Shown piece after piece: positions 13,866 through 48,036 of a stretch of DNA of 64,000 nt. The DNA is from Turicibacter sp. (GTDB lineage: Bacteria > Bacillota_I > Bacilli_A > MOL361 > Turicibacteraceae). The DNA lies in the NCBI GenBank assembly GCA_009780245.1, contig WRAJ01000001.1, positions 1 to 64,000 on the forward strand, given 5' to 3'. The notes under the pieces were generated by a model that saw only the letters and a list, made by a program, of their open reading frames with translations, did no database searches and was not told the origin of the DNA. Made by a program: the position numbers and the translations under genes. Positions within the stretch are counted from its first letter, which is position 1; each line of letters starts with the position of its first letter.

Positions 13866-16800
13866 AGATCAGAGCTGTCATGGCAATTATCTGGCAACGT
13901 CTCAGATGACACAACGATTAATGACGGATTTTTAAGAATTGCAGACGACAACCCATTGGGAACGATTGTCGTGAGAGCGTATGTCACAGCGGATCCGACC
14001 ATCTATGGGATTGCCGTGGTGACCGTTGGCGGTGCTAGTACGTCTTTGATCCACAATCTGCCTGCTGGGCTTAACTTTGATCAATACCCAAGCTTAAGAG
14101 CAGTGTATCAAGACTATTTCAGCATGGGTGTTGCGGGTGATTCTCATTTGATTGCGGGCACGACTGGGATGGCGAATCTACGCGGTGAGTTAATCGGGCA
14201 TCACTACGATTCATGGTCGTTTGAAAACTCGATGAAACCACACCCTTTACGTGGCAATAATGCCGCTAACCGCTTGCAACCTAGCAATCAATGGTCTGGT
14301 ATTGCAGGGCCAACGAATACGATGAACGCAGCATTAGCACGCTACGAAGGGATGACGTTTGCCGGACACACAACGGCTTGGCATTCGCAATCACCTGATT
14401 GGATGTGGGACAGGCATGCGGAAGGCACTGCCGATCGTGACATTGCGTTAGAAAATTTACAATTTCATATTCACGAGACGTTCAGACAATTCGGACCTCA
14501 GCTGTCATCGATGGACGTTGTCAATGAAGCGTTAGGTTCTGTTAACCCAGCTGATCCTTCCGATTGGCGCGATGCCCTTACACGTGGCGAAGGGTGGGCA
14601 CCGACGTTAGGCTACGACTGGGTGATGTACGCGTTCGTTTTCGCAGCTGAAATCGTCGATGAATTAGAGTTAGATGTGACGCTTTACTACAACGATTTCT
14701 TGCTCCACACCACAAACAAAGGCATTGCAGCGTACACCATGGTGAGAGATATTAATCAAATGCACGCTGATGGTGACATCCTTCATCCGATTACAGGCGA
14801 CGTGTTCCAGCGTCCAAATGATCAACTGTTAATCGAAGGTGTTGGGTTACAAGATCGCCAAAGTGGCATCATTGATATTGATGGTTTCTCACATGCGATT
14901 AATCTATTTGCAGAGCTAGGGGTTGTTATTAGTATCACTGAAATGGACCTTTCTTGGCGCATCACTTCGCCTGATGGCTTGTTAACGGCAGAAGAGCAAA
15001 TTGCGCAAGGACAACAAATGGCACGCTTCTTTGAAATGATTAGAAGATACGCAATTGGTCCTGCGACTGCCGGGTCTCCTTATCCACGCGTGGTTGAGCG
15101 TGTGACGTTCTGGGGAATTGATGATACGCATTCTTGGTCGCCTGGAGAGCCAATGTTATTTGGTCGTCCAGACGTTGCCAATAACACGATTCCAGGAAAA
15201 GAGGCTTTAAGAGCCGTGTTAGATCCGTTCCAATTTTTAGAAGATCATCCTTGGGTGCCTGAAGAGCTGCCACCTGTAGCAGGTGTGCACATCTTTAATC
15301 TGCAAGACGATGGCTTCACGGGTGCAAACGTTATTTTAGGAAACGATGCAGAAGTTTGGCCGTTTTCAACAGCTGGTGAAGATGGTGCGGTGGCATTCAC
15401 ACCACAACCGGGTGCGACGTATCACATGCTTGTGCGTTACCAGACGTTTGGGACGTATGGGTTGGAAGCGCACTGGTTGAGCGATAATAGTGAAGACAAT
15501 TTCACGGCTGCCAATATAGAAGCGGCTTTAACCATGGAGACGATTACGAGAGGAAGTGCGGTTACGGGACCAGCGGCGACGGAAATACCAACTCGCTTCT
15601 TTAACCCTGGTGTTGGTGGGTCGTTCGCTTGGCTTGAAACAACTTTCACCATGCCGGAAGAGGCAACTGCCGATGATTTATTAGGAAACATTGCGTTAAG
15701 AGGGATTAACGGTGGGCATGAATTTGGGATTTATTCGATCCAAATTACTAGAATCAATGAGTCTGGCGAGGACGTTTTATTAGTGAATTATCCGTTCCAG
15801 CCGCCTTTGATCAGGCCGACGATTCCGGGTATTATTGTGCCTGAACCAAACGATGCACAAAGTAACGGTCGCGCAGACATTATCATTGGAACCGGCCGCG
15901 ATGTGTGGCCGTATGCAGATGCGCACGAGTCAGGTTTAGCGTTTGAGCCGGAACCGGGTGTCACGTATCGTTTGATGTTTAACATTCGAACAACGGGTGC
16001 TAACGGTTGGCGTGTGCGTTGGATTCCAGGAACGGGTGGCGAAGATTATACGACAGCAGACGGTGCGGTTGTAAACAGCTATCCGTTACGCGTTTCGTCG
16101 TTTGGGTTGGGTGTACCAACGCCTGATTTAATGCCTGAGATGCCAGTGGCGAGCTTTATTCCGTCGCACCAAAATCAAGGCGTTAGTGCAGCGGGTGTTT
16201 ACACGATTGTCCAAGACATTACCTTAAGTGCAGACGAAGATTACCAAGGATTAATTGGAAACATTGCGTTAAGAGGAACAGGTGGATCAGGTAGCTTTGT
16301 TGTCAACTGGATTTCCATTGAAGAACTAGAAGCAGGTCCAGGCAGCGAGGCAACCGAGACCCTTAACTTCTGGCCGTTTGGTGTTGACGCATTTGAAGGT
16401 TTCAGTGCGGATCCACTTGGGTTTATGCAAAATGTAGAAGGTTTCACAGCGGATCACTTTGAGCCAAACGTCTTAAACGTTGCCAATAATTCTTTAATGC
16501 CAATTACAAGACAAGGTGACAACCCGAACCTCACGCTTGATCAGCCGCCACTAGTTGGCGATACATTAGTAGCCGGTCGCATCTCTGGTGGTATTGGTGG
16601 TCCAGAAGGCACACTAAGAGCTGGTACCACGCAAGGCTTCTTAGCAGGACAACCACAATTTGAATGGCTGGTTGACGGTGTCGTGGTGCAAGAGGGAGCG
16701 AATGATACCTTCACAGTTTTACCAGCGCATGCCGGTCGCGTTGTACAAGTTCGCCTGTCATCGGATTGGGAGACGGGACAACTCACAAGTGCGGAAACAC

Positions 16801-19800
16801 CTGCTGTTTACGGAGAAGCGACAGACATTCGCATTCACCCAGAAACCATCACACTTAGACCGGATCGCACACGCGGTTTCATCTTAGAAGGAACCGATGA
16901 CGTTGCTGAATGGACGATAACAGGTGCACAAAATGTTGGCACAACCATTCGCTCGACGGATGAGGGTGGGTTCTTGGCGATAAGCCCAGACGAGCCAAAC
17001 GGTATCATCACGGTAACGGCACAAATCGCTGACCAGTTACCAGTAACCGCAACGGTAATGGTCAGCGCAGAAGACGGTGCTTCCATTATCGACGATTTAG
17101 ATCGCGGATTACCGTTCTTTAACTACCCAGCTTTACGGGATGTGTATGACGACTATTTCTTAATGGGAACCGTTTCCGGGCCACAAATCAACCCAGGAGC
17201 AGGGTCGAACTGGTCAAATAGACGTGCCGTGTTAGCACATAACTACAATTCTGTCACGTTTGGAAACGACATGAAACCAGAACCGCTAAGAGGAAACGAT
17301 CCTGCCAATCGTTTGCAAGATCCGCACGAGTGGCCGGGTCATGTGAGAGAAGGCGCAGCAAGCCTTAACCCAGAGCAAAGTCGCGGTTACGCGTTAGACG
17401 CGTTTCCTGATATGGTGTTTTACGGTCACACAACTGCTTGGCATTCACAATCGCCGTCTTGGATGTGGGACAGACACGATGGCGGAACGGCGGATCGAGA
17501 CGTTGCGCTGGAAAACATGCAACATCACGTTAGAGGCTTCTTCGAGCTTTACGGCGATTGGATTTGGGCCGTTGACGTGGTGAACGAGCCGTTTGGATCG
17601 GTTAATCCGGCTGACCCATACGATTGGCGTTTCTCATTAGCAAGAGGTGAAGGCTGGTACCCAACGCTCGGATACGATTGGGTGACGTACGCGTTTATCT
17701 TTGCGGCTGAAATCGTGGATGAGCTAGAACTGGATACGCAACTTTACTTGAACGAATTTAATGTCGCTACGGCACTTAAAGGCACGACGGTTTATGCGTA
17801 CATCAGAGAAGTTAACGCGTTACACGCAGCTGGTGAATTGATGCACCCGGTGACCGGAGAGCCGTTCCAACGTGAAAACGGGCGCATGCTCATTGAAGGA
17901 ATTGGGATGCAAGATCGCGCTTCTGGTGTGATGAACATTGAAGCGTGGGAAGCGTCGATTGTGCGCTTTGCCTCTTTAGACTTGCGCATTGCCATTACGG
18001 AGCTTGATCTTTCTTGGCGCATCAGTAGCCCAGATGGTCGTTTGACGCCAGAAGAAGAATTGGCACAAGGGATTCAATATGCACGTTTATTCGAACTGTT
18101 TAGACGATATGCCGCAGGCCCTGCCAACGCGGGTTCTCCTTACCCGCGTGTCATTGACGTGGTCACAACGTTTGCGCTGGTTGACGATCCACAAGGCTGG
18201 AACCCTAACATGCCTGCCATCTTTAACGCACCAGAACCTTACGATGGACCGGGTGCGATTATGGGGTACACGGTAACAGGGAAATACGGTTTATTAGGAA
18301 CGTTAGATCCACATCGTTTCCTTGAAGAAAACCCTTGGGTACCAGCTGAATTACCACCGATTGATGGGGTACACGTCTTCAATTTGGATGAAGACGGATT
18401 CACGGGTATGAACATTATATTAGGTAACGATGCCGACGTTTGGCCATTCTCAACAGCGGCCGATGATGGGTTGGTTGCCTTTACTCCAGAACCTGATGCA
18501 ACGTATTTAATGCGCGTTTACTATCAATCGCTTGAAACGTTTGGTTTAGAGGCGCATTGGATTAGCGATAACAGCGAAAATAATTTTACAGCAGCAAACT
18601 TGCTTGCAGCTGAAACAATGCCAACGATCACACGTGGTCCGGCTGCAGCTACGGGCGCGATGGCGGATGCGATTCCAAATCGCTTCTTCAATCCTGGCGT
18701 GAGTGGTTCTTACGCGTGGCTAGAAACCACCTTTACGCTACCAGCGGATGCCGAAGCGGATGGGCTCTTAGGCAATATCGCGTTAAGAGGGCATCACGGT
18801 GAGCATGGCGTTGCCATCCAAACCGTGCGCATCTACCGACTTGACGATGACGGTAACCCAGAGCAACTACTGGTCAATTACCCTTATCGCATTCCGTTAG
18901 AACGACCGGTGATTCCAGGCATTATCGTGCCAGAACCGAACGACACACAGTCTAATGGTCGCGCAGATATTATCATTGGAACAGGTCGCGACGTTTGGCC
19001 GTACGCGGATGCGCATGAATCCGGTGTGGCTTTTGACCCACAACCAGGTGTGACGTATCGTCTCATGTTTAACATGAGAACAACAGGTGCGAACGGCTGG
19101 CGTGTGCGTTGGATTCCAGGAACAGGCGGCGAAGACTATACGACGGCAGATGGTGCGGTTGTAAATAGCTATCCGATGCGTGTTTCCGCCTTCGGATTAG
19201 GTGTGCCAACGCAAGATTTAATGCCTGAGATGCCAGTGGCGAGCTTTATCCCGTCACATCCAAATCAAGGGGTTAGTGCCGCCGGTGTTTACACGGTTGT
19301 TCAAGACATTACGCTAAGCCCAGATGAGGTGTATCAAGGTTTAATCGGAAACATTGCGCTACGTGGAACTGGTGGTTCTGGTAACTTCGTTGTTAACTGG
19401 ATTTCGATTCAAGAATTAGAAGCCGGTCCGGGTAGCGAGGCTGTGGAGACACTTAGCTTCTGGCCGTTCGGGGTTGATGCGTTTGAAGATTTCAGTGCTG
19501 ACCCTGTGGCAACGATGCAAAACGCAGACGGTTTTGAACCAGATCATTTCCCACCAAACGTGTTAAACGTTGCCAATAACTACTTAACGCCAATCACAAG
19601 ACAAGCAGATCAGTCCGTTATTGACGCTGATCACCCGCCTTTAGTTGGTGATACGTTAGTGGCTGGTCGCATCTCTGGTGGTGCAGCAACGGGAGCGGCA
19701 ACCGGTCCAGAAGGATCGTTACGTGCTGGTGTCACACAAGGCTTCCTAGCAGGAAATGCGCAATTTGAGTGGCTTGTAAATGGTGAAGTGGTTCAATCCG

Positions 19801-19916
19801 GTACGGAAGAGACGTTCACCGTACTGCCAGAACATATCGGCTATACGATCGAACTTCGCTTAACGTCTGATTGGGAAACGGGGCAGCTGACGAGCGAAAC
19901 ACCAGCTGTCGAAGGG
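13791..19916 (+). repeat. in-frame tandem duplication of a ~3.06-kb Ig/GH10/CBM/CBM block
   Basis: Copy A runs from about 13791 and copy B from about 16845 to 19916, each with the order Ig-like, GH10, CBM-like, CBM-like, 'FWPFGVDAF' linker, and an Ig-like domain ending 'TSDWETGQLTS'. Identity is uneven: the second CBM-like module and linker (15825-16500 versus 18905-19590) are nearly identical in protein, whereas the GH10 catalytic domains differ at roughly 40% of positions by eye. Confidence 0.85.
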
Positions 19917-22900
19917 GACCTTGTACCAGACTACCCAGTTGTGTGGTCATTGCGAACCGATGCATACGTGCAAGATTTAGCACTAGGTGCTACGACGCTC
20001 GCTGGAACGCCAGTCTTAAACCCTGCTGGTGCTACTGTAAGTGCCGTTGTTAACGGCATCGATGCCGCTGACATCGCTTTAGAAGTCACCGGAAGAACAA
20101 ACGATTGGCACGGGTTACAGATTTTACGTACTGGTTTAGAAGCAGCTGGTATGAGTGTTGGCAACACGTATAACATTGTGGTCATTGGACGTGCGATCGA
20201 ACCACCTGCAAACGGACAAATGGTGCTGAGACAAGCAGGCAACCCATGGAATAATCTTTCAGGTGTTGTGGGTGTCACGCCTAGCAGCCCAGACTTTGTC
20301 ATTGATTGGACCTTTACGCCTGATCAACCGAACTTAGTGGGGCAGGATATCCGTATCCAAACACCAACAGGCCCATCGGCAACGATGTCGTTCGTCATTG
20401 ATGATATTATCATCACACGTACCATCGTCGGACCAGCGGCTTACACGCTTGCAGTAAACGGCGAGCCGGGTGTCGCAACAACAACCGAAATCACATTGAA
20501 TTTCTTAAGAGATATTTCGCCTGATTTAGCCCTTTCTCACATGACCTTTAATCCGCGAGCAACGGGTGCTGAGGTAGTGGGACTAAGAAGAATTTCAGCT
20601 GATGAGTACATCCTTGAGATTGAGGGTGCAACACGTTGGGGCTATGTTGGCGTAGTCATTGATCACCCTGATGTTCAAGCGGGTGAAAGAACGGTGATGA
20701 TCTATCACGCGGATGGTTACTTCATTCCAAATGCACCGTTACGTCCTTACTTCCCATGGGTACATGATCCTGACTTTAGGGAGCTAATGCCACTTGAAGA
20801 AATGTTAAACGACCCGTTCCAATTCTTTGTCACAACGGACGGGCAGTCGGGCGGTTACGGTGAGGTTGTGCCTAACCGTGTCGTGACAGAAGCCGACTGG
20901 GAGCATCGTCGTGCTGAAATTCGCGATTTAGTGATGTATTACTACGCTGGCTACTTATGGCCGACAACGGTGGATAACGTCACAGTTAACACCGATGAAG
21001 TGATCCGTGGGGAGGCAGCGAACGTGATTAACATTACGGTCGATGAGTACCGCTCAGACGGAACACCAGTGACCGCGACTGGTAACATTGCAACGGGTGT
21101 GTGGTTACCGACTTACGAACAACTTCGTGCAAACGGCTTCTATGAGACGGGCGGACCGATTATTATCGGAACGGGTCATACGTTAAGTGTGGCTTCTCGA
21201 AACGAAGCACTTGAAAGAGGGATTGCCGTTGCCGTCGTGCCTGGTCCAGGCGATGCAAGGCCTCACGCTGGCATGTATACCCAACTATTCCCACATAATC
21301 CAAATGTCACCGAGTATAACACGGGTGCGATGATGATTCACGCATGGAACGTATCAAGGTTCTTAGATACTTTGGAAATTATGCAAGACGAGTGGCGTGT
21401 TAATCCAAACATGTCAGTGACAATCGGAAACTCGTTCCAAGGAAAGCGCGCGATGTTTGCAGCCGTGATGGACGAGCGTGTTGCGATTGCTGCGCCACAC
21501 GAGTCAGGTGGAGACGGCGGGATGGCACCGTTTAGAGGTAGCCACGCAGGTCGCATTCACTTCTATTGGCACGACGGTGTTAACCGACCACATAGCTGGC
21601 ACGAAACACCAAGAGCTGGAAATCCTGGACGCCGTGCGCAAGGACCAGTTGTCGATTTATTATGGGGCAACTTGCCACATGAAGAAAGCACTTGGTTAGC
21701 GCCATTTGATATGCACATGGTAGCAGCACTACAAGCGGGGCCAGTAGCAGGCTTTGACGGGCCAGATGCGCCTGGACGCGCGTTCTTAAGTTTAGAAACG
21801 TCTAACTTTGGAACTTGGACGGGATGGTCATTAGGTAGAAGTGTGGCTGAAGCTGCTGGTGAAGTCTTCACCTTCTTAGGTTATGAAGGCTACATGGTTT
21901 ACTTTATGAAAAACAGCTCTCACTCGATTCACGATTCTGATTTCCCAGTGATTTTCGCCATCTTAGATTATCAATTTGGTGATAACGGTCGCAGAGAGGA
22001 AAACCAGGTGTACGTGCCAAACGTTCTGGGTGCAGCTTTACCAGGACTATGGGACGGTGGACTTTCAGCATTAGGACGCTCACCAATTGAAGTGGATTCA
22101 TTCTTTATGCCTTGGTCGCGCCCAGGGGTTCATCTATTATACACTGAAAACCAACTTGTCTCAGAAGGACTACCAGCAACCATTGTGGCACAAACGGATG
22201 CCCCTTACGTTGAGTTAATCTTATGGACGCACGGCGATGGGAATCGTCTGTGGGGCGTAGAAAACCCGCCGCAAGAACTTAACCGTTGGCAAGTCGCAAC
22301 GGTAGACGGCGTGGCAACGTTTAACCTATCGGGCGATGAAGTGTTGATCGGTCGCTATGAATTAAGAACAACCGGTGGCGACTTAGAAGATCGAAGCGTG
22401 TTCTTCCAAGGGATTGACGTGCGCACAGCCGTTCGAAATGCCCCAACCAGTGATAACATTGGCGCTGGTAATGCGATGTTTGGTTTCTCAAGTAGAATCC
22501 TTCCTGATGTGCAAGTGTACACAACAAACGCAGACGGCGTTGTCACTAGCCTTCAAGGACACACAACGCCAAACGTCACAAACACTTGGATCATGCCATA
22601 CGGTGTGCGTGTACCGGCAATTGCAGGTACAGGCCCTGATCGCTTCTACACGTTAAGAAACTTGCAGTTTGAAGCAGTGCCAGGCTTTACCTTTGAAATG
22701 TCGTTCCAAGAGAACTTGAACCTTGGCGGTTGGCCAAACCCAGACGTACCAGTGATTTGGAACGCAAGTCCTGCCGTTCAACACATCGGGCCATACCCGC
22801 ACTTTAGACCGGGTGGAAACGCACCGGCTTGGGGTGTGCCAAATGATACACACATGGGTTACTCACAAAACCGTAGCACAGAGTTCGAAGCAACGATCCT

Positions 22901-23693
22901 AAACCATGAAGGCATCGGGACGTTTGATGAAGATTTAGAGGTTTGGACAGAGCTTGACGCTTGGGTGATCACCTTTAGCGAAGCGATGAACCCACGTGAC
23001 TTCGGTATCGGATTCGACTTCTCAACAGACTTCACCCTTGACTGGAGCAACAACAACGAAGTGTTAACGGTGACGTTCAACGATTTCGATCCAGCCTTAA
23101 ATCCGGCTGATACGTATCTCAATATGCACATCACGCGTTTAAGAGATGCTAGGCCTGCAACAGGGAATTCAGCTGCCCAAATGGTACGTGTGCATAACGA
23201 TCTCATCTCTTACTCACTGCCAGGACCGGTTGAAGCAGGCATCCCTGATCCAATCGTTAACGTGGTGGTTGATGTAACGGTAAACCGTAATCGTGTCAAC
23301 ATTAGTGTGACACCAGACGTTGCTCATACCATTGCGGTGATTAACCGAGAGATCGTGATGACAATTCCGAATGCGGATGGCGACGTAAATATTGAGAACG
23401 TTATTGTGCCACCTGGTTGGCGCGTTGCGATCGATGAGGGTGCTGAGATTGTGCTGAGACTAACAGCACCAGCTAGATACGAGGTTGTATTGATTGCTGG
23501 TCGTATCATGGTAAGGCGAAGATTATTCCCAAGCCTTCCGAGTCTTCCAGGCTTGCCTAGTCTCCCACCATTCCCAGGCCTGCCAAGCTTCCCAGGATTA
23601 CCGAGCTTCCCAAGTCTTCCACCCATTCCGCCTTTACCACCGCTACCACCGATTTTCCCAAGACCACCACTATTTCCACGACTCTTGAGATAA
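13956..23693 (+). CDS. giant multidomain xylanase, downstream part: GH10 x2, CBM-like x4+, CE15-like esterase
   Basis: The frame is open from 13866, directly after the TAA; 13956 (TTG) is only the first usable start codon. Order by residue from 13956: end of an Ig-like domain; GH10 no. 1 (~30-430; HTTAWHSQ, acid/base E191 in DVVNEA, nucleophile E329 in ITEMD); two CBM-like modules; Ig-like; GH10 no. 2 (~1050-1470; E1211 in DVVNEP, E1349 in ITELD); two CBM-like modules; another CBM-like module (~1990-2160); a CE15 glucuronoyl-esterase-like domain (nucleophile S2493 in GNSFQGK, acid in HESGG, His in the SHSIHDSDFP area); an Ig-like C-terminal region; and a Pro-rich tail of about 50 residues. 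GH10 cuts the xylan backbone; CE15 cuts lignin-glucuronate esters. It has no export signal of its own. Confidence 0.85.
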   Translation: MGTIVVRAYVTADPTIYGIAVVTVGGASTSLIHNLPAGLNFDQYPSLRAVYQDYFSMGVAGDSHLIAGTTGMANLRGELIGHHYDSWSFENSMKPHPLRGNNAANRLQPSNQWSGIAGPTNTMNAALARYEGMTFAGHTTAWHSQSPDWMWDRHAEGTADRDIALENLQFHIHETFRQFGPQLSSMDVVNEALGSVNPADPSDWRDALTRGEGWAPTLGYDWVMYAFVFAAEIVDELELDVTLYYNDFLLHTTNKGIAAYTMVRDINQMHADGDILHPITGDVFQRPNDQLLIEGVGLQDRQSGIIDIDGFSHAINLFAELGVVISITEMDLSWRITSPDGLLTAEEQIAQGQQMARFFEMIRRYAIGPATAGSPYPRVVERVTFWGIDDTHSWSPGEPMLFGRPDVANNTIPGKEALRAVLDPFQFLEDHPWVPEELPPVAGVHIFNLQDDGFTGANVILGNDAEVWPFSTAGEDGAVAFTPQPGATYHMLVRYQTFGTYGLEAHWLSDNSEDNFTAANIEAALTMETITRGSAVTGPAATEIPTRFFNPGVGGSFAWLETTFTMPEEATADDLLGNIALRGINGGHEFGIYSIQITRINESGEDVLLVNYPFQPPLIRPTIPGIIVPEPNDAQSNGRADIIIGTGRDVWPYADAHESGLAFEPEPGVTYRLMFNIRTTGANGWRVRWIPGTGGEDYTTADGAVVNSYPLRVSSFGLGVPTPDLMPEMPVASFIPSHQNQGVSAAGVYTIVQDITLSADEDYQGLIGNIALRGTGGSGSFVVNWISIEELEAGPGSEATETLNFWPFGVDAFEGFSADPLGFMQNVEGFTADHFEPNVLNVANNSLMPITRQGDNPNLTLDQPPLVGDTLVAGRISGGIGGPEGTLRAGTTQGFLAGQPQFEWLVDGVVVQEGANDTFTVLPAHAGRVVQVRLSSDWETGQLTSAETPAVYGEATDIRIHPETITLRPDRTRGFILEGTDDVAEWTITGAQNVGTTIRSTDEGGFLAISPDEPNGIITVTAQIADQLPVTATVMVSAEDGASIIDDLDRGLPFFNYPALRDVYDDYFLMGTVSGPQINPGAGSNWSNRRAVLAHNYNSVTFGNDMKPEPLRGNDPANRLQDPHEWPGHVREGAASLNPEQSRGYALDAFPDMVFYGHTTAWHSQSPSWMWDRHDGGTADRDVALENMQHHVRGFFELYGDWIWAVDVVNEPFGSVNPADPYDWRFSLARGEGWYPTLGYDWVTYAFIFAAEIVDELELDTQLYLNEFNVATALKGTTVYAYIREVNALHAAGELMHPVTGEPFQRENGRMLIEGIGMQDRASGVMNIEAWEASIVRFASLDLRIAITELDLSWRISSPDGRLTPEEELAQGIQYARLFELFRRYAAGPANAGSPYPRVIDVVTTFALVDDPQGWNPNMPAIFNAPEPYDGPGAIMGYTVTGKYGLLGTLDPHRFLEENPWVPAELPPIDGVHVFNLDEDGFTGMNIILGNDADVWPFSTAADDGLVAFTPEPDATYLMRVYYQSLETFGLEAHWISDNSENNFTAANLLAAETMPTITRGPAAATGAMADAIPNRFFNPGVSGSYAWLETTFTLPADAEADGLLGNIALRGHHGEHGVAIQTVRIYRLDDDGNPEQLLVNYPYRIPLERPVIPGIIVPEPNDTQSNGRADIIIGTGRDVWPYADAHESGVAFDPQPGVTYRLMFNMRTTGANGWRVRWIPGTGGEDYTTADGAVVNSYPMRVSAFGLGVPTQDLMPEMPVASFIPSHPNQGVSAAGVYTVVQDITLSPDEVYQGLIGNIALRGTGGSGNFVVNWISIQELEAGPGSEAVETLSFWPFGVDAFEDFSADPVATMQNADGFEPDHFPPNVLNVANNYLTPITRQADQSVIDADHPPLVGDTLVAGRISGGAATGAATGPEGSLRAGVTQGFLAGNAQFEWLVNGEVVQSGTEETFTVLPEHIGYTIELRLTSDWETGQLTSETPAVEGDLVPDYPVVWSLRTDAYVQDLALGATTLAGTPVLNPAGATVSAVVNGIDAADIALEVTGRTNDWHGLQILRTGLEAAGMSVGNTYNIVVIGRAIEPPANGQMVLRQAGNPWNNLSGVVGVTPSSPDFVIDWTFTPDQPNLVGQDIRIQTPTGPSATMSFVIDDIIITRTIVGPAAYTLAVNGEPGVATTTEITLNFLRDISPDLALSHMTFNPRATGAEVVGLRRISADEYILEIEGATRWGYVGVVIDHPDVQAGERTVMIYHADGYFIPNAPLRPYFPWVHDPDFRELMPLEEMLNDPFQFFVTTDGQSGGYGEVVPNRVVTEADWEHRRAEIRDLVMYYYAGYLWPTTVDNVTVNTDEVIRGEAANVINITVDEYRSDGTPVTATGNIATGVWLPTYEQLRANGFYETGGPIIIGTGHTLSVASRNEALERGIAVAVVPGPGDARPHAGMYTQLFPHNPNVTEYNTGAMMIHAWNVSRFLDTLEIMQDEWRVNPNMSVTIGNSFQGKRAMFAAVMDERVAIAAPHESGGDGGMAPFRGSHAGRIHFYWHDGVNRPHSWHETPRAGNPGRRAQGPVVDLLWGNLPHEESTWLAPFDMHMVAALQAGPVAGFDGPDAPGRAFLSLETSNFGTWTGWSLGRSVAEAAGEVFTFLGYEGYMVYFMKNSSHSIHDSDFPVIFAILDYQFGDNGRREENQVYVPNVLGAALPGLWDGGLSALGRSPIEVDSFFMPWSRPGVHLLYTENQLVSEGLPATIVAQTDAPYVELILWTHGDGNRLWGVENPPQELNRWQVATVDGVATFNLSGDEVLIGRYELRTTGGDLEDRSVFFQGIDVRTAVRNAPTSDNIGAGNAMFGFSSRILPDVQVYTTNADGVVTSLQGHTTPNVTNTWIMPYGVRVPAIAGTGPDRFYTLRNLQFEAVPGFTFEMSFQENLNLGGWPNPDVPVIWNASPAVQHIGPYPHFRPGGNAPAWGVPNDTHMGYSQNRSTEFEATILNHEGIGTFDEDLEVWTELDAWVITFSEAMNPRDFGIGFDFSTDFTLDWSNNNEVLTVTFNDFDPALNPADTYLNMHITRLRDARPATGNSAAQMVRVHNDLISYSLPGPVEAGIPDPIVNVVVDVTVNRNRVNISVTPDVAHTIAVINREIVMTIPNADGDVNIENVIVPPGWRVAIDEGAEIVLRLTAPARYEVVLIAGRIMVRRRLFPSLPSLPGLPSLPPFPGLPSFPGLPSFPSLPPIPPLPPLPPIFPRPPLFPRLLR

Positions 23694-23828: not shown

Positions 23829-23861
23829 ATTCTATGGCAATAACTTACATGAAAACTGAAT

Positions 23862-24082
23862 AACTTGTTAGGTGCGGCTCCTAGGAGAACACAGGCTACT
23901 GCCCGGAAATATCGAGAGATGCCAATGGGTAGAGCAGCTGAGGTCGGGTTAAGGCTTCGGATAAGGTAGCTATTCGCATACGTGCGAAATTACGTCTTCT
24001 AGTGCTTAAGCTCAGACGAGGAGTATGTTGATCTATTTTTTGGCGGGTCTAAATTGGCGAGCCTAAAGAATAGACGTGTCAC
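23862..24082 (+). ncRNA. M-box (ykoK leader) magnesium riboswitch
   Basis: Conserved M-box segments appear in order: TTAGGTGCGGCTCCTAGGAG, AGGCTACTGCCCGGAAA, TCGAGAGATGCCAATGGGT and GAGCAGCTGAGG. It is followed directly by an intrinsic terminator and then by the magnesium channel gene mgtE. In Bacillus this RNA senses Mg2+ and terminates transcription when Mg2+ is plentiful. The core is complete, with no missing helix that I can see. Confidence 0.92.
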
Positions 24083-24428: not shown

Positions 24429-24551
24429 ATGGATGAACCGTCCAGGCAGTATATAAATGTGAATTTTAAGAATACTAAATTACCGGAGGTACATAAAAAT
24501 GATGGATTTCAGAGAAGCTGTTTTGACTCATGTCAAAGCAAAAGAAATTAA
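24429..24551 (+). CDS. possible 40-codon leader ORF overlapping the mgtE start
   Basis: ATG 24429 follows a GAGGTGGG ribosome binding site at good spacing. The frame runs 40 codons and ends in TAA 24549-24551, inside mgtE, crossing the mgtE RBS and start codon in another frame. The peptide (MDEPSRQYINVNFKN...) matches nothing I know. Translation of it would cover the mgtE ribosome binding site and could couple to it; chance is equally possible. Confidence 0.25.
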   Translation: MDEPSRQYINVNFKNTKLPEVHKNDGFQRSCFDSCQSKRN

Positions 24552-26064
24552 TGGATTAAAGAAAATTTTAAACGAGGCGAATGGGCTAGACATTATCAAC
24601 ATCATGGATGAAATGTCTAACGAAGAGATTGTACTTGCTTATCGGCTTTTAAATAAAGATTTAGCGCTTGAAGTGTTCGAGGGCTTGGATTTAAATGACC
24701 AACAATGGCTCATCAAAACATTAACGGAAACCGATGCAGTCGCAGTCTTTAACGAGTTGGCACCGGACGATCGGGTTAGGTTACTTGATGAATTACCTGC
24801 TGGCGTGGCAAAAAGAATGTTAGCGTCGCTAGATCGAAAAGCGTGCGAGGACATCAACCTATTGATGGGATTTGCACCGGAGACTGCGGGTCGATTAATG
24901 ACACCTGAATACGTGCGCTTGCGCGGAGAATGGACAGCTGGTGAGGCGCTTGAGAAAGTGCGTGCCATCGCCAAAGATAAAGAAACGATTTATACGCTAT
25001 TCGTTACGGATGATAAAAGAAAACTAGAAGGTGTTATTTCTTTACGTGACTTATTTATTGCGGACGAAGAAGTGAAGATTACGGATATTATGACCGACGA
25101 TGTGGTCAGTTTTGATACGAGTACGGATCAGGAAGAAGTGGCGAAATCGCTACAAATCTTAGACTTGCTCGCCGTTCCAATTGTGGATAAAGAAAATCGC
25201 TTAGTTGGTATCATCACCGTTGATGATGCAATGGATATCTTACAAGATGAAGCAACAGAAGATATCTTAGCAGGAGCGGGTCTTGTCAGTAGCGGTGAAG
25301 TCGCAGGTAGTGAAACGATGCGAAGTGTGACGCTGATTGAGGGGAGTATGCCGAAGATTTGGCGTGCCCGGATTCCATTTCTTGTCATTACGATGGTAGC
25401 CGGATTTTTAGCAGCCGGTGTCATGGATCAATTCGAGGACATTCTGGAGTCAGTTGCAGTGGTTGCGATTTTCATCCCGATTATCATGGACATGGGTGGG
25501 ACGATTGGAACGCAGTCAGCGACGATCTTCACACGCGGTATTCTGCTAGGACACATTCAAACAAAAAGTATTCAAAAACATATTTTAAAAGAAGTGCTAG
25601 TCGGTATTAGTTTAGGAACAATCATTGGTGTGGTAACGGGAGCCATTGCTTATTTCTGGCAGGGCGATATGTCATTGGCATTAGCATTGGGATTAGCACT
25701 CGTTGCAACGATGACGTTAGCAGCTTTTCTCGGATTTACAGTGCCATACGTGTTAATGAAGCTAAACTTGGATCAAGCCACTGGAACTGGTCCGCTAATC
25801 ACCTCAATTAAAGATATCTCGGGGTTATTTATTTACTTTGGTCTTATCGCATTGTTCTTAGGTGTGTTAACACCAGATTACGAAGTGACAGGTATGTTCG
25901 TAGAAAAGGATGGTATTCATTACTTCTTAGATATGGAAGAAGAAACAGCGTTGGTGATTGAAATCGAAGGTTGTGAAGTCAACCTAGCAGATTGTGACGT
26001 TGAAATCCCAGAAGAAATTGAAATTAGTGATGACGAGTTTGAAGTGATCAGGTTAAGAGATTAG
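24499..26064 (+). CDS. mgtE: magnesium transporter MgtE
   Basis: 521 residues. A helical MgtE N domain (residues ~1-130) is followed by two CBS domains (~135-255), a plug helix and five membrane segments (~285-455), with GGTIGTQSATIFTRG being the family's pore signature. It is a Mg2+ channel gated by intracellular Mg2+. An extra acidic tail of about 65 residues after the last membrane segment (EVTGMFVEKDGIHYFLDMEEET... to the end) is longer than the usual family C-terminus (~450 total). Expression is controlled by the M-box upstream. RBS GGAGG lies 10 nt before ATG. Confidence 0.95.
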   Translation: MMDFREAVLTHVKAKEINGLKKILNEANGLDIINIMDEMSNEEIVLAYRLLNKDLALEVFEGLDLNDQQWLIKTLTETDAVAVFNELAPDDRVRLLDELPAGVAKRMLASLDRKACEDINLLMGFAPETAGRLMTPEYVRLRGEWTAGEALEKVRAIAKDKETIYTLFVTDDKRKLEGVISLRDLFIADEEVKITDIMTDDVVSFDTSTDQEEVAKSLQILDLLAVPIVDKENRLVGIITVDDAMDILQDEATEDILAGAGLVSSGEVAGSETMRSVTLIEGSMPKIWRARIPFLVITMVAGFLAAGVMDQFEDILESVAVVAIFIPIIMDMGGTIGTQSATIFTRGILLGHIQTKSIQKHILKEVLVGISLGTIIGVVTGAIAYFWQGDMSLALALGLALVATMTLAAFLGFTVPYVLMKLNLDQATGTGPLITSIKDISGLFIYFGLIALFLGVLTPDYEVTGMFVEKDGIHYFLDMEEETALVIEIEGCEVNLADCDVEIPEEIEISDDEFEVIRLRD

Positions 26065-31891: not shown

Positions 31892-32056
31892 TTAAGGGTA
31901 TCTCTATCAATGTCCACAAGCCATCTTTCGCCAAAAATCCGCTATCCTGCGTCAACTCCTCCTAACGTACGTCCCTGTACGCGTCGTCGTCGTTTCCTTG
32001 TCTAGCAAATTTTTGTCGGAAACCTGGCAATGTGGAATTAATAGAGATACCCTTAA
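31892..32056 (+). mobile_element. MITE-like palindromic element, copy 1
   Basis: 165 nt bounded by perfect 16-bp terminal inverted repeats TTAAGGGTATCTCTAT / ATAGAGATACCCTTAA. The two arms stay complementary, imperfectly, for about 50 nt inward. No ORF is carried. A second copy lies at 44470-44635. It sits between the divergent LysM and GH1 genes. Confidence 0.85.
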
Positions 32057-43318: not shown

Positions 43319-43392
43319 GTATAAGGGAAAAAATGAAATTTTTTTCACAAATCCGCATGGATAGACGTTAACAAATGGGAGGCGATAACGTG

Positions 43393-44523
43393 ATGAATAA
43401 ACTTGAACCATACTTTAAAGCATTTCTAAACCAATTCACCCCTTACAAAGGGTTCTGGTGTTACGAAGACGGCGTTGTACTAAAAGGTGCCATGGACTTA
43501 TACGAAGTCACCGGTGAGGCGTGCTATTGGGATTTTATTGAAACGTATTTAAACGATTTCGTCGATGCAGAGGGAAGTCTGAAGGGCTATGCTGTGGCGG
43601 AGTATAACATCGATCACATTCATCCTGGAAAAATATTGTTCTTTGCGTATGAAAAAACAAAGGATGAGCGATTTAGGAAAGCCATCGAAAAGCAGATGGA
43701 TCAACTGCGCAACCACCCGCGTCTACCCTCTGGGAATTTCTGGCACAAAGGTCGCTATTCGCAGCAGCTGTGGTTAGACGGGCTATACATGGCCTTACCG
43801 TTTTATGCCGAATACGAAAACAAGTACAACGGTCATAAAGAGTACGAAGACATTTATAACCAGTTTCTAGCAGCTAGAACGCTTTTGCGCGATGAGAAAA
43901 CGGGACTTTATTACCACGCTTACGATGACAGTCGATTAATGTTTTGGTCTGACCCTTATACGGGGCGTTCAGAAAATTTCTGGCTCCGTGCGCAAGGGTG
44001 GTTACTGATGGCCTTAGTGGACACAGCGGATAAAATGAGCGAAACGATTTTTGAATATCACAAGGCTTTAAAAGACTTCGCGAAAGATACCATTATGGAA
44101 ACATTAGCGTTTCAAGACGCACAGACGCAGCTATGGTGGCAAGTGATGGATCAAGGCGGTCGTGCTGGTAATTACGTTGAAACATCAGGAAGTGCGATGA
44201 TCATTTATACGATTTTAAAAGGGATTCGTTTAAATATACTAGATGAATCGTTAAAAGAAGTCGCGGTTCGCGCACTGGAAAGCCTCTTAGCCGTTCACGG
44301 TTATGAAGAAGACGGAAAGCTTCGCATTGGCGGCATGGTGGGAACGTGTGGTGTGGGCGACTACGAAGGCGTGCGACGAGATGGGACGTATGACTACTAC
44401 GTTTCTGAAGCGGTTGTAGTGGATGATGCAAAAGGGGTAGGGCTCTTAATGTCAACGTACGCGGAATATTTAAGGGTATCTCTATCAACGTCCTCAAGTC
44501 ATCTTTCATCAGAAATCCCCTAA
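43393..44523 (+). CDS. GH105 unsaturated rhamnogalacturonyl/galacturonyl hydrolase
   Basis: 376 residues from ATG 43393 (GGGAGG upstream; the adjacent GTG 43390 is almost as good). The family 105 (alpha/alpha)6 barrel is seen in GFWCYEDGVVLKGAMDLYE, IDHIHPGKILFFAYE, WLDGLYMALPFYAEY, FWLRAQGWLLMALVDT and YYVSEAVVVDDAKGVG, matching YteR/YesR of Bacillus. It removes the unsaturated uronate left by pectate or rhamnogalacturonan lyases. No signal peptide, so it is cytoplasmic. The last 17 residues and the stop codon come from an inserted MITE-like element. Confidence 0.9.
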   Translation: MNKLEPYFKAFLNQFTPYKGFWCYEDGVVLKGAMDLYEVTGEACYWDFIETYLNDFVDAEGSLKGYAVAEYNIDHIHPGKILFFAYEKTKDERFRKAIEKQMDQLRNHPRLPSGNFWHKGRYSQQLWLDGLYMALPFYAEYENKYNGHKEYEDIYNQFLAARTLLRDEKTGLYYHAYDDSRLMFWSDPYTGRSENFWLRAQGWLLMALVDTADKMSETIFEYHKALKDFAKDTIMETLAFQDAQTQLWWQVMDQGGRAGNYVETSGSAMIIYTILKGIRLNILDESLKEVAVRALESLLAVHGYEEDGKLRIGGMVGTCGVGDYEGVRRDGTYDYYVSEAVVVDDAKGVGLLMSTYAEYLRVSLSTSSSHLSSEIP

Positions 44524-44635
44524 CCTGCGTCAACTCCTCCTAACGTACGTACCCGTACGCTTCGTCGTCGTTTCCTTGTCTAGTGAATTTCTGATTAGAA
44601 ACCTGACAATGAGGAGTTAATAGAGATACCCTTAA
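44470..44635 (+). mobile_element. MITE-like palindromic element, copy 2
   Basis: 166 nt with the same 16-bp ends as the copy at 31892 and about 85% identity to it. The central part (CTCCTCCTAACGTACGT and TCGTCGTCGTTTCCTTGTCTAG) is nearly invariant. It begins inside the last codons of the GH105 gene. Differences between the copies are matched on both arms. Confidence 0.88.
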
Positions 44636-44661
44636 GACTAATAAGGTAGGAACTTTAGGCT

Positions 44662-46221
44662 ATGAAATGTAAACCAATATTAATCACATCAACAAGTGCC
44701 ACATTTGAATTGGAAAACGAGGCGGTCTATCGCCTCGTAGAAACATACGACGTGTTGTTAAACGGCGAACTTGTATTGACTGGGATCTCAAAAAATGTAT
44801 TTTCCTTGTATAACCTAACGCCCCACAGGAATTACGACATCACATTGAGGGGCACTGACGGGAAAAGCCCAACCGTTTCCTTCGAGACGAAAAGCGAAAC
44901 GATGTGCTTGAACGTCAGGCGATTTGGTGCTGTTGGTGACGGTGTTGCTGACGATACGCAAGCGATTCAAGCAGCGATTATGTCTTGCTGTGAGAATGGC
45001 CGTGTGCTTATACCAGCGGGCACTTATCACGTGAAGACGATTTTCTTAAAATCAAATTTCACGCTAGAACTGGCGAAAGGGGCGACGTTGTCTTATCAAG
45101 GTGCGTTTCATCAAGGTGCGATCCTCCCAGGCTATACGTTTGATGCCCAGGGCGAGGAATATTATTTGGGCTCTTGGGAAGGCAATCCGATCGACAGTTA
45201 TACCGCGCTGATTCAAGGCATTAACGTGGAAAACGTGAACCTCATTGGCGAGGGTGTTCTTGACGGAAACGGTCATAACTGGTGGGGTTATCCCAAAGTG
45301 AGAAAAGGGGCATGGCGACCCCGGTTGGTACAGTTGATCCATTCAAAAAGGGTTAACCTACAAGGTCTTACGGTTCGAAATTCGCCGTCTTGGACGATTC
45401 ATCCCCTCTTTTCAAGCGACTTGATTTTCGCGGATTTAACCATCATCAACCCAAAAGATTCACCAAATACAGACGGATTAAACCCGGAAAGTTGTCATCA
45501 CGTCTTAATCGTTGGCGTCTACTTCTCTGTGGGTGACGACTGTATTGCGATTAAGTCAGGCAAAATTTATTTGGGTCGTAAATTGAAGCGACCGTCACGG
45601 CGCATCACCATTCGCAATTGTAGCATGAACTTCGGACACGGCGCGGTTGTAGTGGGGAGCGAGATGGCCGGTGGCGTCAAGGATGTGACCGTTAGTCAGT
45701 GCTTGTTCAACGAAACCGATCGCGGCTTACGAATAAAAACGCGACGCGGACGTGGCAAGGATGCCATTGTTGACGGCATTTATTTTAAAAACATCCAGAT
45801 GCACCGTGTGCAGACCCCGCTTGTGATCAATAAGTTTTATTTCTGCGACCCAGATGGGCACAGCGATTATGTGAGAACAAAAGAGGCGTTGCCCGTTGAT
45901 GAGCGAACGCCGTATATTGGGAAGTTAGTGTTTGAAGACATTGCATCCGAGGCTAGCTCGGTTGCAGCAGGGTTCTTCTATGGGTTACCTGAGCAACCTA
46001 TTTCAGAGCTAGTGTTGAAAAATTGTTCTTTTTCGATGGTGAGCGATGGCGAAGCTGATTATCCGGCAATGATGGATGATATTTCGAAGTATGCACAGGC
46101 GGGCTTGATTTTTCATCACGTCAAGTCGCTTGTGATGAACAACGTCACACTTGATGGGGTCGTTGGTGAGAAGGTGGTATTAAACGATGTGGATAAGGTG
46201 GTAATGGAAGATGATCATTAG
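44662..46221 (+). CDS. GH28 polygalacturonase-type glycoside hydrolase
   Basis: 519 residues. A fibronectin-like N-terminal ~80 residues precede a right-handed beta-helix starting LNVRRFGAVGDGVADDTQAIQAAI. All GH28 motifs are present: N269-T-D-G (D271), D292-D293 in GDDC, H326 in GHG, R357-I-K. It is an inverting hydrolase for galacturonides or rhamnogalacturonides, probably exo-acting on imported oligomers because there is no signal peptide. RBS GGTAGGAAC is weak. Its 3' end overlaps the RDD gene by 11 nt. Confidence 0.93.
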   Translation: MKCKPILITSTSATFELENEAVYRLVETYDVLLNGELVLTGISKNVFSLYNLTPHRNYDITLRGTDGKSPTVSFETKSETMCLNVRRFGAVGDGVADDTQAIQAAIMSCCENGRVLIPAGTYHVKTIFLKSNFTLELAKGATLSYQGAFHQGAILPGYTFDAQGEEYYLGSWEGNPIDSYTALIQGINVENVNLIGEGVLDGNGHNWWGYPKVRKGAWRPRLVQLIHSKRVNLQGLTVRNSPSWTIHPLFSSDLIFADLTIINPKDSPNTDGLNPESCHHVLIVGVYFSVGDDCIAIKSGKIYLGRKLKRPSRRITIRNCSMNFGHGAVVVGSEMAGGVKDVTVSQCLFNETDRGLRIKTRRGRGKDAIVDGIYFKNIQMHRVQTPLVINKFYFCDPDGHSDYVRTKEALPVDERTPYIGKLVFEDIASEASSVAAGFFYGLPEQPISELVLKNCSFSMVSDGEADYPAMMDDISKYAQAGLIFHHVKSLVMNNVTLDGVVGEKVVLNDVDKVVMEDDH

Positions 46222-46624
46222 GCGAATAGCAGCAAACGTCATTGACTTGATTGTTTTAATTGGTTCAATTGCTGTCGGCGTGTACTTTGCAGGACAATTA
46301 GCTGACATGTTTGAAGAACCGTTCTTTTTGTTAACCGCGAGCATGACAGCGATTATTATTTTAGTGCCCATTGGGATTCAATCTTTGTTTTGGCTGGAAA
46401 GCACAACCCTTGGAAAAACCATGGTGTTTATTAAGGTTGTGAGAAACGAAGACGGTGAAGACCTAGATTACTTCCAAATGTTTGTCCGAGACTTTTTGTT
46501 AAAAGTGTTATCGGCTAACCTGATGACCTTACCAGCCTTTGTTGGAAGACCGACGATTCACGATGTTATTTTAGATTCAAAAGTGATTATAAAACCAAAA
46601 GTAAAGCGAGGGAACAAGGCGTGA
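46211..46624 (+). CDS. RDD family membrane protein
   Basis: 137 residues: Arg-rich start MIIRRIAANVIDLIVL (the R..A..D pattern of RDD proteins), two or three membrane segments (about residues 10-30, 42-64), then LGKTMVFIKVVRNEDGEDLDY. The function of the family is not settled; some members act as Na+/H+ exchangers. It is tightly packed between GH28 and uxaC (overlaps on both sides), so it is translated with them. Such a gene is not a usual part of uronate operons. Confidence 0.8.
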   Translation: MIIRRIAANVIDLIVLIGSIAVGVYFAGQLADMFEEPFFLLTASMTAIIILVPIGIQSLFWLESTTLGKTMVFIKVVRNEDGEDLDYFQMFVRDFLLKVLSANLMTLPAFVGRPTIHDVILDSKVIIKPKVKRGNKA

Positions 46625-48036
46625 AGAAATTTTTAGACCAAGATTTTTTATTGCATAACGAAACGGCGAAAACGTTGTATCACGAGTATGCAGCTAAAAT
46701 GCCAATCATTGATTTCCACAACCACTTAAGTGCACAGGAAATTTATGAAAACAAGCAGTTTAACGACATTTCGGAAGTTTGGCTAGGTGGCGATCATTAC
46801 AAATGGCGTGCGATGAGGACGTTAGGTGTCGCGGAAGACATTGTGACTGGACCTGCATCTGCCAAAGAAAAATTCGCTGCTTGGGCGAAATCGGTACCTT
46901 ACCTAGTAGGGAATCCGCTGTATCATTGGACACACATGGAGCTTCAAAGGTACTTCGGCATTGAAACGTTGTTAAATGAACAAACAGCGGATGAGATTTT
47001 TGAAACGTGTAACGCGATGCTGCAAAAAGAGGCATTTCGCGTGCGTGGTTTGCTGGAAATGCAGCAAGTACAAGTGGTCTCGACAACGGATGATCCGGTG
47101 GATGATTTAAAGTATCATCAGCTCATTGCGGAGGATGCGAGCATTGACTTACAAGTGTTACCAACGTTTCGCCCGGATAAATCCGTTAACATTGACTTAA
47201 GTTGGTTCAACGATTGGATCGATACGCTTGCCGGTGTGGTGGGGCATGGCATTGATGAGCTCGATGATTTGTTTCAAGCATTAGCGAGTCGCATGGATTT
47301 CTTTGTCGATGCCGGTGCGAATGCTTCGGATAATGGGCTTGATGTGTTTGCCTACGCAGAATCAACGTTGGAAGAGGCTGCGGCTATTTTCTTGAAAGCC
47401 CGCTCTGGTGCGTCGTTAACAGAAGAAGAAGTTGAAAAGTATAAAACGCAAGTCTTCCTCTTCTTAGGAAAGGAATACCACAAGCGTAACTGGGTGATGC
47501 AACTGCATATTGGGGCATTGCGTAATAACAACACGCGTAGATTAAATGAGCTTGGGCCAGATACTGGTTACGACGCGATTAATAACTCGTTTGACATTGC
47601 GAAGCTATCGAAATTCTTGAACGCTTTAGATGCGAACGATCAGTTGCCGAAGACGATCATTTACGATTTGAACCCAGCGGATAATCATAAAGTGGTGACG
47701 TTGATGCAGTGCTTCCAAGACGGCGTGACACCAGGGAAATTACAGTTTGGCTCTGGTTGGTGGTTCATGGATCAAAAGGACGGGATGATCGATCAAATGC
47801 GCGCGTTGGCTGCCAATGGCGTTCTGTCTAAGTTTGTTGGGATGTTAACCGACTCAAGAAGCTTCTTATCGTTTCCGCGTCACGAATACTTCCGACGTAT
47901 TCTATGCCAATTATTAGGTGAGTACGTGGAAGCAGGTGAATACCCGGCAGACATTGAATTCCTAGGAAGCGTCGTCGAAGATATTTGTTACAACAATTCA
48001 AAAGAATATTTTGGTTTCGAGAATTTGAAATTATAA
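46621..48036 (+). CDS. uxaC: glucuronate/galacturonate isomerase
   Basis: 471 residues from GTG 46621, overlapping the RDD stop by 4 nt. It isomerises galacturonate to tagaturonate (and glucuronate to fructuronate). Family motifs are PIIDFHNHLSAQEI (metal-binding His pair), RWRAMRTLG-like KWRAMRTLG, HWTHMELQRYFGI, VVSTTDDPVDDL and GWWFMDQKDG...LTDSRSFLSFPRHEYFRR. First committed step of the uronate pathway whose later enzymes lie downstream. Confidence 0.96.
   Translation: MKKFLDQDFLLHNETAKTLYHEYAAKMPIIDFHNHLSAQEIYENKQFNDISEVWLGGDHYKWRAMRTLGVAEDIVTGPASAKEKFAAWAKSVPYLVGNPLYHWTHMELQRYFGIETLLNEQTADEIFETCNAMLQKEAFRVRGLLEMQQVQVVSTTDDPVDDLKYHQLIAEDASIDLQVLPTFRPDKSVNIDLSWFNDWIDTLAGVVGHGIDELDDLFQALASRMDFFVDAGANASDNGLDVFAYAESTLEEAAAIFLKARSGASLTEEEVEKYKTQVFLFLGKEYHKRNWVMQLHIGALRNNNTRRLNELGPDTGYDAINNSFDIAKLSKFLNALDANDQLPKTIIYDLNPADNHKVVTLMQCFQDGVTPGKLQFGSGWWFMDQKDGMIDQMRALAANGVLSKFVGMLTDSRSFLSFPRHEYFRRILCQLLGEYVEAGEYPADIEFLGSVVEDICYNNSKEYFGFENLKL

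Follow-up and report, generated by a model that had tools for sequence, protein, structure and literature searches.

Two palindromes of about 165 bp whose arms change in step between copies raise the question of what is maintained in such an element: its ends, the sequence between them or a folded strand and, in the last case, whether this strand acts as DNA or as RNA. They lie in a stretch of 64,000 nucleotides from a Turicibacter sp. (hereafter the window), which belongs to a 2.1-Mb metagenome-assembled genome (MAG) that is 76% complete. The initial annotation had described palindromes with identical 16-bp ends at 31892-32056 and 44470-44635, and exact end matches bear this out. The terminal inverted repeats of copy 1, both exact matches, are found at 31892-31907 on the plus strand and at 32041-32056 on the minus strand, and those of copy 2 at 44470-44485 (plus) and 44620-44635 (minus). 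The sequence TTAAGGGTATCTCTAT is matched exactly four times in the window, against 0.41 occurrences expected with up to three mismatches. Both copies belong to a family that we call A and are read on the minus strand, which is the purine-rich folding strand; the opposite strand folds less well. In copy 1 the MFE is -54.7 on the plus and -77.5 on the minus strand (z-scores of -8.6 and -12.1, respectively) and the arms pair over about 55 nt, in keeping with the approximately 50 nt proposed before. Neither copy contains an open reading frame of 80 amino acids, and about 165 bp is too short to code. The stepwise differences reported between the copies (AAT/AAC, CCACA/CCTCA, GCCA/GTCA and CAAAAA/CAGAAA) are each present on both arms. 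Two copies alone are nevertheless insufficient to demonstrate selection for folding as paired changes also arise from template switching within a palindrome.

The genome of the window harbors four full family A copies, one of them enlarged by an internal insert of some 85-90 nt, as well as isolated ends and a 57-bp match to the central part alone with other flanks. An orphan family A end, TAAGGGTATCTCTATTAATTC, is located just ahead of a gene start near position 2555 of locus L094 (G000:C1:117355), without partner end or core, and a short family A element without core (L148, G000:C29:20281-20352) is a deletion derivative. Around copy 2, a pectin and uronate cluster (43375-48036) comprises genes for a GH88 enzyme, a GH28 polygalacturonase-like protein and glucuronate isomerase. 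The GH88 gene (43375-44523) extends 54 nt into the element, from which its last codons and stop are derived, and the insertion seems to have truncated or fused it. Elsewhere in the window, an M-box (magnesium) riboswitch at 23857-24031 precedes an mgtE-type transporter gene (24499-26064), and an open reading frame of 3245 amino acids, very long for this genome, occupies 13956-23693.

The central parts of the two palindromes had been described as invariant. The description has to be corrected, since these parts belong to a 56-nt core (the middle 57 bp or so of the element) that recurs in many element families with unrelated terminal repeats. A covariance model of this core, R1, was built from families A to D and recognizes it on the minus strand at 31947-32000 in copy 1 (68.3 bits) and at 44525-44578 in copy 2 (66.1 bits). 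On the purine-rich folding strand, the core reads as a motif, a helix that we call P, a second motif and an apical hairpin. In copy 1, alignments A4 and A5 place the CAAGGA strand of the first motif at 31995-32000, opposite its partner GACGCAG at 31947-31953. Helix P follows, its 5' side at 31989-31994 and its 3' side at 31954-31959, with Watson-Crick pairs alternating with tandem G.A; the second motif opposes GACGACG (31982-31988) to UUAGGA (31960-31965), and the apical hairpin CGTAC-loop-GTACG (31966-31981) closes the structure, all on the minus strand. Both motifs are alike and arranged head to head, each being a non-canonical internal loop of the form 5'-CUAGGA/GACGACG or CAAGGA/GACGCxG built from a closing pair and a bulge together with a non-canonical pair that covaries, A.G, G-C and tandem G.A/A.G. 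Among 99 distinct cores, the non-canonical pair is C-A in 45, A-U in 45 and another combination in nine for the second motif, and U-A in 57, A-C in 21 and G-A in 13 for the first. The 6-bp helix P, flanked by the two motifs, compensates freely and ranges from full Watson-Crick versions (AGCGGC/GCCGCU) to tandem G.A versions (AGGAGC/GCGACU), while the AGGA/GACG loops beside such helices are near-invariant.

Three families carry this core in the genus of the window. Family C was found in the same genome as the window copies (L007) and family B in WRKJ01 (G001), a MAG from the gut of Termes hospes (source study: PMC7024585) and the only congener in the genome set examined; in both the core matches and the arms are quite different. 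A pattern scan of GTDB species genomes uncovered family D in a second termite MAG, WRAW01 (G395), from the gut of Labiotermes labralis. In this genome a strict core pattern gave three places, against about 140 core matches with the R1 model. Sixty-nine of these matches were read out and revealed at least eight further end types around the same core, including CTAGTGTTCCATCCGG, TAGGGTGTGTCGTCAATAG, TAGGGCGTGTCGACATGAG, TATAGCTGTTCC, TAGACCTCTTCCGAAA, AGAGCCTATCCAACAATA, AGGGCGTATTCCCACTA, AGAGCCTGTTTAATATC and others; G395 holds about ten or more element families. The terminal repeats of the other families match at 15-18 of 18 positions, and element length without inserts is nearly constant at about 160-170 bp. 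Within the order of G395 the core occurs in 18 of 96 sampled genomes, with copy numbers between one in G571, which is a single contig of 3.76 Mb, and at least 59 in G550. On the side of the window, class- and phylum-wide samples confine it to the genus: none was found in other genera of the family, and among 392 sampled genomes of the phylum only G000 carries it. The only match in viral, phage and plasmid collections is an IMG/VR contig of 9486 bases, the same size as contig C87 of G395.

Several variants of these elements were encountered. In several end families of G395, a hairpin unit of about 45 nt (CCGGGGxCCCCACGAAGCC..GGCTTCGTGGGGTGGA) is nested in the right arm at a roughly constant position (L119, L124, L152, L156, L159, L160, L186, L194, L208, L225, L227, L231, L235 and L240). 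Some copies (L116, L153, L155, L160, L238, L242 and L244) carry another hairpin, GGATGCTGTGTGCCxGTGGCACACGTYTAGCATCC plus about 20 nt, inserted in the core directly after the AGGA of the second motif, where it resembles an optional extra domain. Locus L050 (G001:C75) is a deletion derivative whose apical part was lost between direct repeats CGTCCT. A Guanidine-I riboswitch lies near the single core copy of the one-contig genome G571 (L259, 2436-2537, minus strand).

The MITE-like nature proposed for the window copies is supported: the elements have terminal inverted repeats, are dispersed in many copies and, in family D, are flanked by target duplications, and they are non-autonomous. In 21 of 23 family D copies the same three bases adjoin either end, and they are always TNA; TGA/TGA and TCA/TCA are among them, and since the middle base agrees between the two sides these are direct and not inverted repeats. 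No consistent target duplication was seen for family A, where the TTAA ends are ambiguous. Three-base TNA duplications characterize the IS1031-like subgroup of the IS5 family, which family D resembles in this respect. Unlike IS5-family elements, those described here contain no transposase gene. A transposase with matching ends, which the initial annotation had proposed to look for, was not found: an end-pattern scan of the genome of the window detected no such gene between family A ends, and none of the PF01609 loci of three genomes, the only transposases searched, carries any of the ends. Among the first 100 of the 162 family D ends of G395, the distance between facing ends is just 99-350 bp, which leaves no autonomous element among these matches. 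These searches ran on incomplete MAGs. Single-strand HUH transposition of the IS200/IS605 type leaves no target duplication, and such elements, together with REP sequences, are excluded by the terminal repeats and the TNA duplications.

Evidence that the fold itself is maintained comes from larger sets of copies. In a MAFFT alignment of 23 family D copies, not fitted to any model, 97.3% of the cells are paired and 23 of 59 pairs have changed on both sides, against 13.1 ± 2.0 in shuffles and five to seven in slid controls. A set of about one core per genome displays changes on both sides in 13 of 16 Watson-Crick core pairs, with 91.2% of cells paired (74.3 ± 1.2 when shuffled, 18-49% in slid controls) and a covariation of 0.506 against 0.197 ± 0.017; having been fitted to the model, this alignment leans towards the structure. 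Both partners changed on 26 branches in family D (6.4 ± 2.4 expected) and on 49 in the core (10.2 ± 4.1 expected). An R-scape-like pairwise G-test with a tree null has little power here and found 0 of 59 and one of 24 pairs significant. Uncompensated arm differences, which had been named in advance as grounds for refuting a role of the folded form, do exist: family D underwent about 32 pair-breaking steps against 77 pair-keeping ones. The role itself is supported, compensation being frequent without being complete.

The pairing preferences are those of one strand, not two. In a palindrome kept by arm conversion in the double strand, G.U and A.C would be expected to be equal. In the helices of families D, B and A, G.U and A.C cells number 95:13, 71:3 and 14:0, and G.A and C.U cells in the internal loops number 239:12, 120:3 and 34:0. 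The bias is also seen in an energy-free comparison without folding, for which the right arm of each of 88 elements was reverse-complemented and aligned with the left arm. The outer 27 nt gave 153:20 for G.U:A.C and 94:7 for G.A:C.U, so that the bias reaches the terminal repeats; further inside, the ratios are 182:28 and 247:13, and elements from other genomes yield 42:13 and 50:6. All 88 elements fold better on the purine-rich strand, with a mean of -89.7 against -73.1 kcal/mol. Single steps off Watson-Crick pairs lead to G.U rather than A.C at ratios of 33:13 (p 0.0045) and 12:1 (p 0.0034), those of family D to G.U comprising 17 C>U and 15 A>G. The preference is retained on terminal branches, at 22:11 and 9:1, with the caveat that source copies missing from the sample may be concealed there. 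The G.U excess is not accounted for by mutation bias, as unpaired columns run mostly in the opposite direction (27 G>A against nine A>G). As the initial annotation had inferred from paired changes, the folded form matters: compensatory change and strand-specific G.U and G.A pairing indicate that a folded single strand is under selection.

We consider it probable, though only by a little, that the elements are built in three layers, namely the 56-nt core, the inner arms around it and terminal inverted repeats that can be exchanged, that the selected form is RNA and that they are moved in trans. The RNA would arise by read-through of the element and fold into a rod; this is inferred in the absence of expression data, and no conserved internal promoter was recognized by eye. 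The core, being nearly two-fold symmetric, may bind a protein, probably as a dimer, a partner that remains hypothetical. Movement in trans is presumed to rely on DDE transposases, which for the TNA families would be IS5-like; if these enzymes read only the double-stranded ends, the ends could be swapped, and the RNA module might be kept because it helps the element to persist or spread. RNA is favored over single-stranded DNA as the acting molecule because it best accommodates G.U pairs, tandem G.A motifs and the covariation within the loops.

Single-stranded DNA is the main rival and is not excluded, since G.T and G.A are among the most stable DNA mismatches. The same elements would then be selected as a DNA substrate, one strand folding while the element is replicated or transposed and being recognized by a protein, in the manner of attC sites. 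A DNA intermediate accounts without extra assumptions for the random orientation of the elements relative to flanking genes (40 of 83 loci in G395, G001 and G000, p 0.83), and the extension of the pairing bias into the terminal repeats speaks in the same direction. At 53 of these 83 loci the folding strand lies on the C-rich strand, a weak excess (uncorrected p 0.015) that would be relevant to a DNA mechanism linked to replication. Against these points, the exact TNA duplications of family D indicate double-strand DDE and not HUH transposition, and a covarying non-canonical loop pair is, in our judgement, more typical of RNA motifs. We regard the DNA alternative as a serious possibility of rather low probability.

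A further alternative, which we hold to be unlikely, is that of a regulatory RNA serving the host, such as a riboswitch, leader or processing signal, spread by transposition and now kept at individual sites. The G.U bias on terminal branches is consistent with it, insertions are mostly intergenic (11 of 83 overlap a long open reading frame), and MITE-like repeats in untranslated regions of Bacillus cereus are often transcribed, one of them affecting decay (PMC3446304). It is weakened by up to about 140 core matches in one genome, by the lack of any credible Rfam match and by an orientation that is random to both neighbors: without orientation preference, a folded RNA cannot be needed in host transcripts at every site, and a cis-regulatory reading was rejected on this tally. 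Copies in either orientation and few overlaps with reading frames make it more plausible that the structure serves the element than each neighboring gene. Least tenable, and in our view very improbable, is the absence of any selection on a folded strand, with template switching or arm-to-arm conversion keeping the arms complementary and the core reflecting common descent: a single template switch in a quasi-palindrome does suffice for a paired change, single branches often carry double changes (23 such events in family D) and whole arm segments of that family change together, but such a process predicts no strand asymmetry, contrary to the excess of G.U over A.C and of G.A over C.U in the family sets tested and to the single steps favoring G.U, and it leaves near-invariant AGGA/GACG loops next to compensating helices unexplained.

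Several known systems share some of these traits. Integron attC sites, recognized by integron integrases, are strand-specific folded palindromes with conserved unpaired features. The present elements are similarly strand-specific and, unlike attC sites, have no cassette at the loci read and form a mobile unit of about 165 bp with terminal repeats and target duplications. Likenesses to attC, CsrA sites, K-turns and bridge RNAs were dropped on informal comparison since the defining layout appears to be absent. The bcr repeats of the Bacillus cereus group are close in kind, being intergenic repeats of Bacillota of which bcr1-bcr3 are MITE-like and often found in transcripts and bcr10 and bcr18 have a conserved RNA structure (PMC3446304). 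The difference is that MITE-like character and RNA structure are described there for separate families, whereas here one core extends across many end families and several genomes. Bacterial MITEs such as NEMIS/Correia, RUP and EFAR are 70-300 bp long, have terminal repeats of 15-30 bp, are non-coding, fold robustly and can be mobilized in trans by transposases (PMC3733652); the elements of the window are likewise short, folded, bordered by terminal repeats and devoid of coding capacity. In a survey of stem-loop repeats, folding was generally common to both strands (PMC2267715), and the elements studied here depart from such repeats and from MITEs in favoring one strand and in keeping a fixed internal core under unrelated ends. 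Rfam gave only chance-level matches on the elements and no description of them was found in the open-access literature; they apparently constitute a large, undescribed superfamily of hairpins of about 165 bases in gut bacteria.

MITEs are usually viewed as passive filler between ends recognized by a transposase. In these elements it is the filler that is conserved and the ends that vary. A wider interpretation, possible and so far only tentative, is that of a mobile structured RNA whose twofold-symmetric, protein- or RNA-binding core spreads in Bacillota on interchangeable transposon ends, the folded RNA being needed for spread. The R1 covariance model and the list of carrier genomes offer an immediate way to follow these elements. 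If the acting molecule is RNA, they would represent a mobile RNA family with up to about 140 core copies per genome, and the question of whether MITEs need an RNA would become directly testable.
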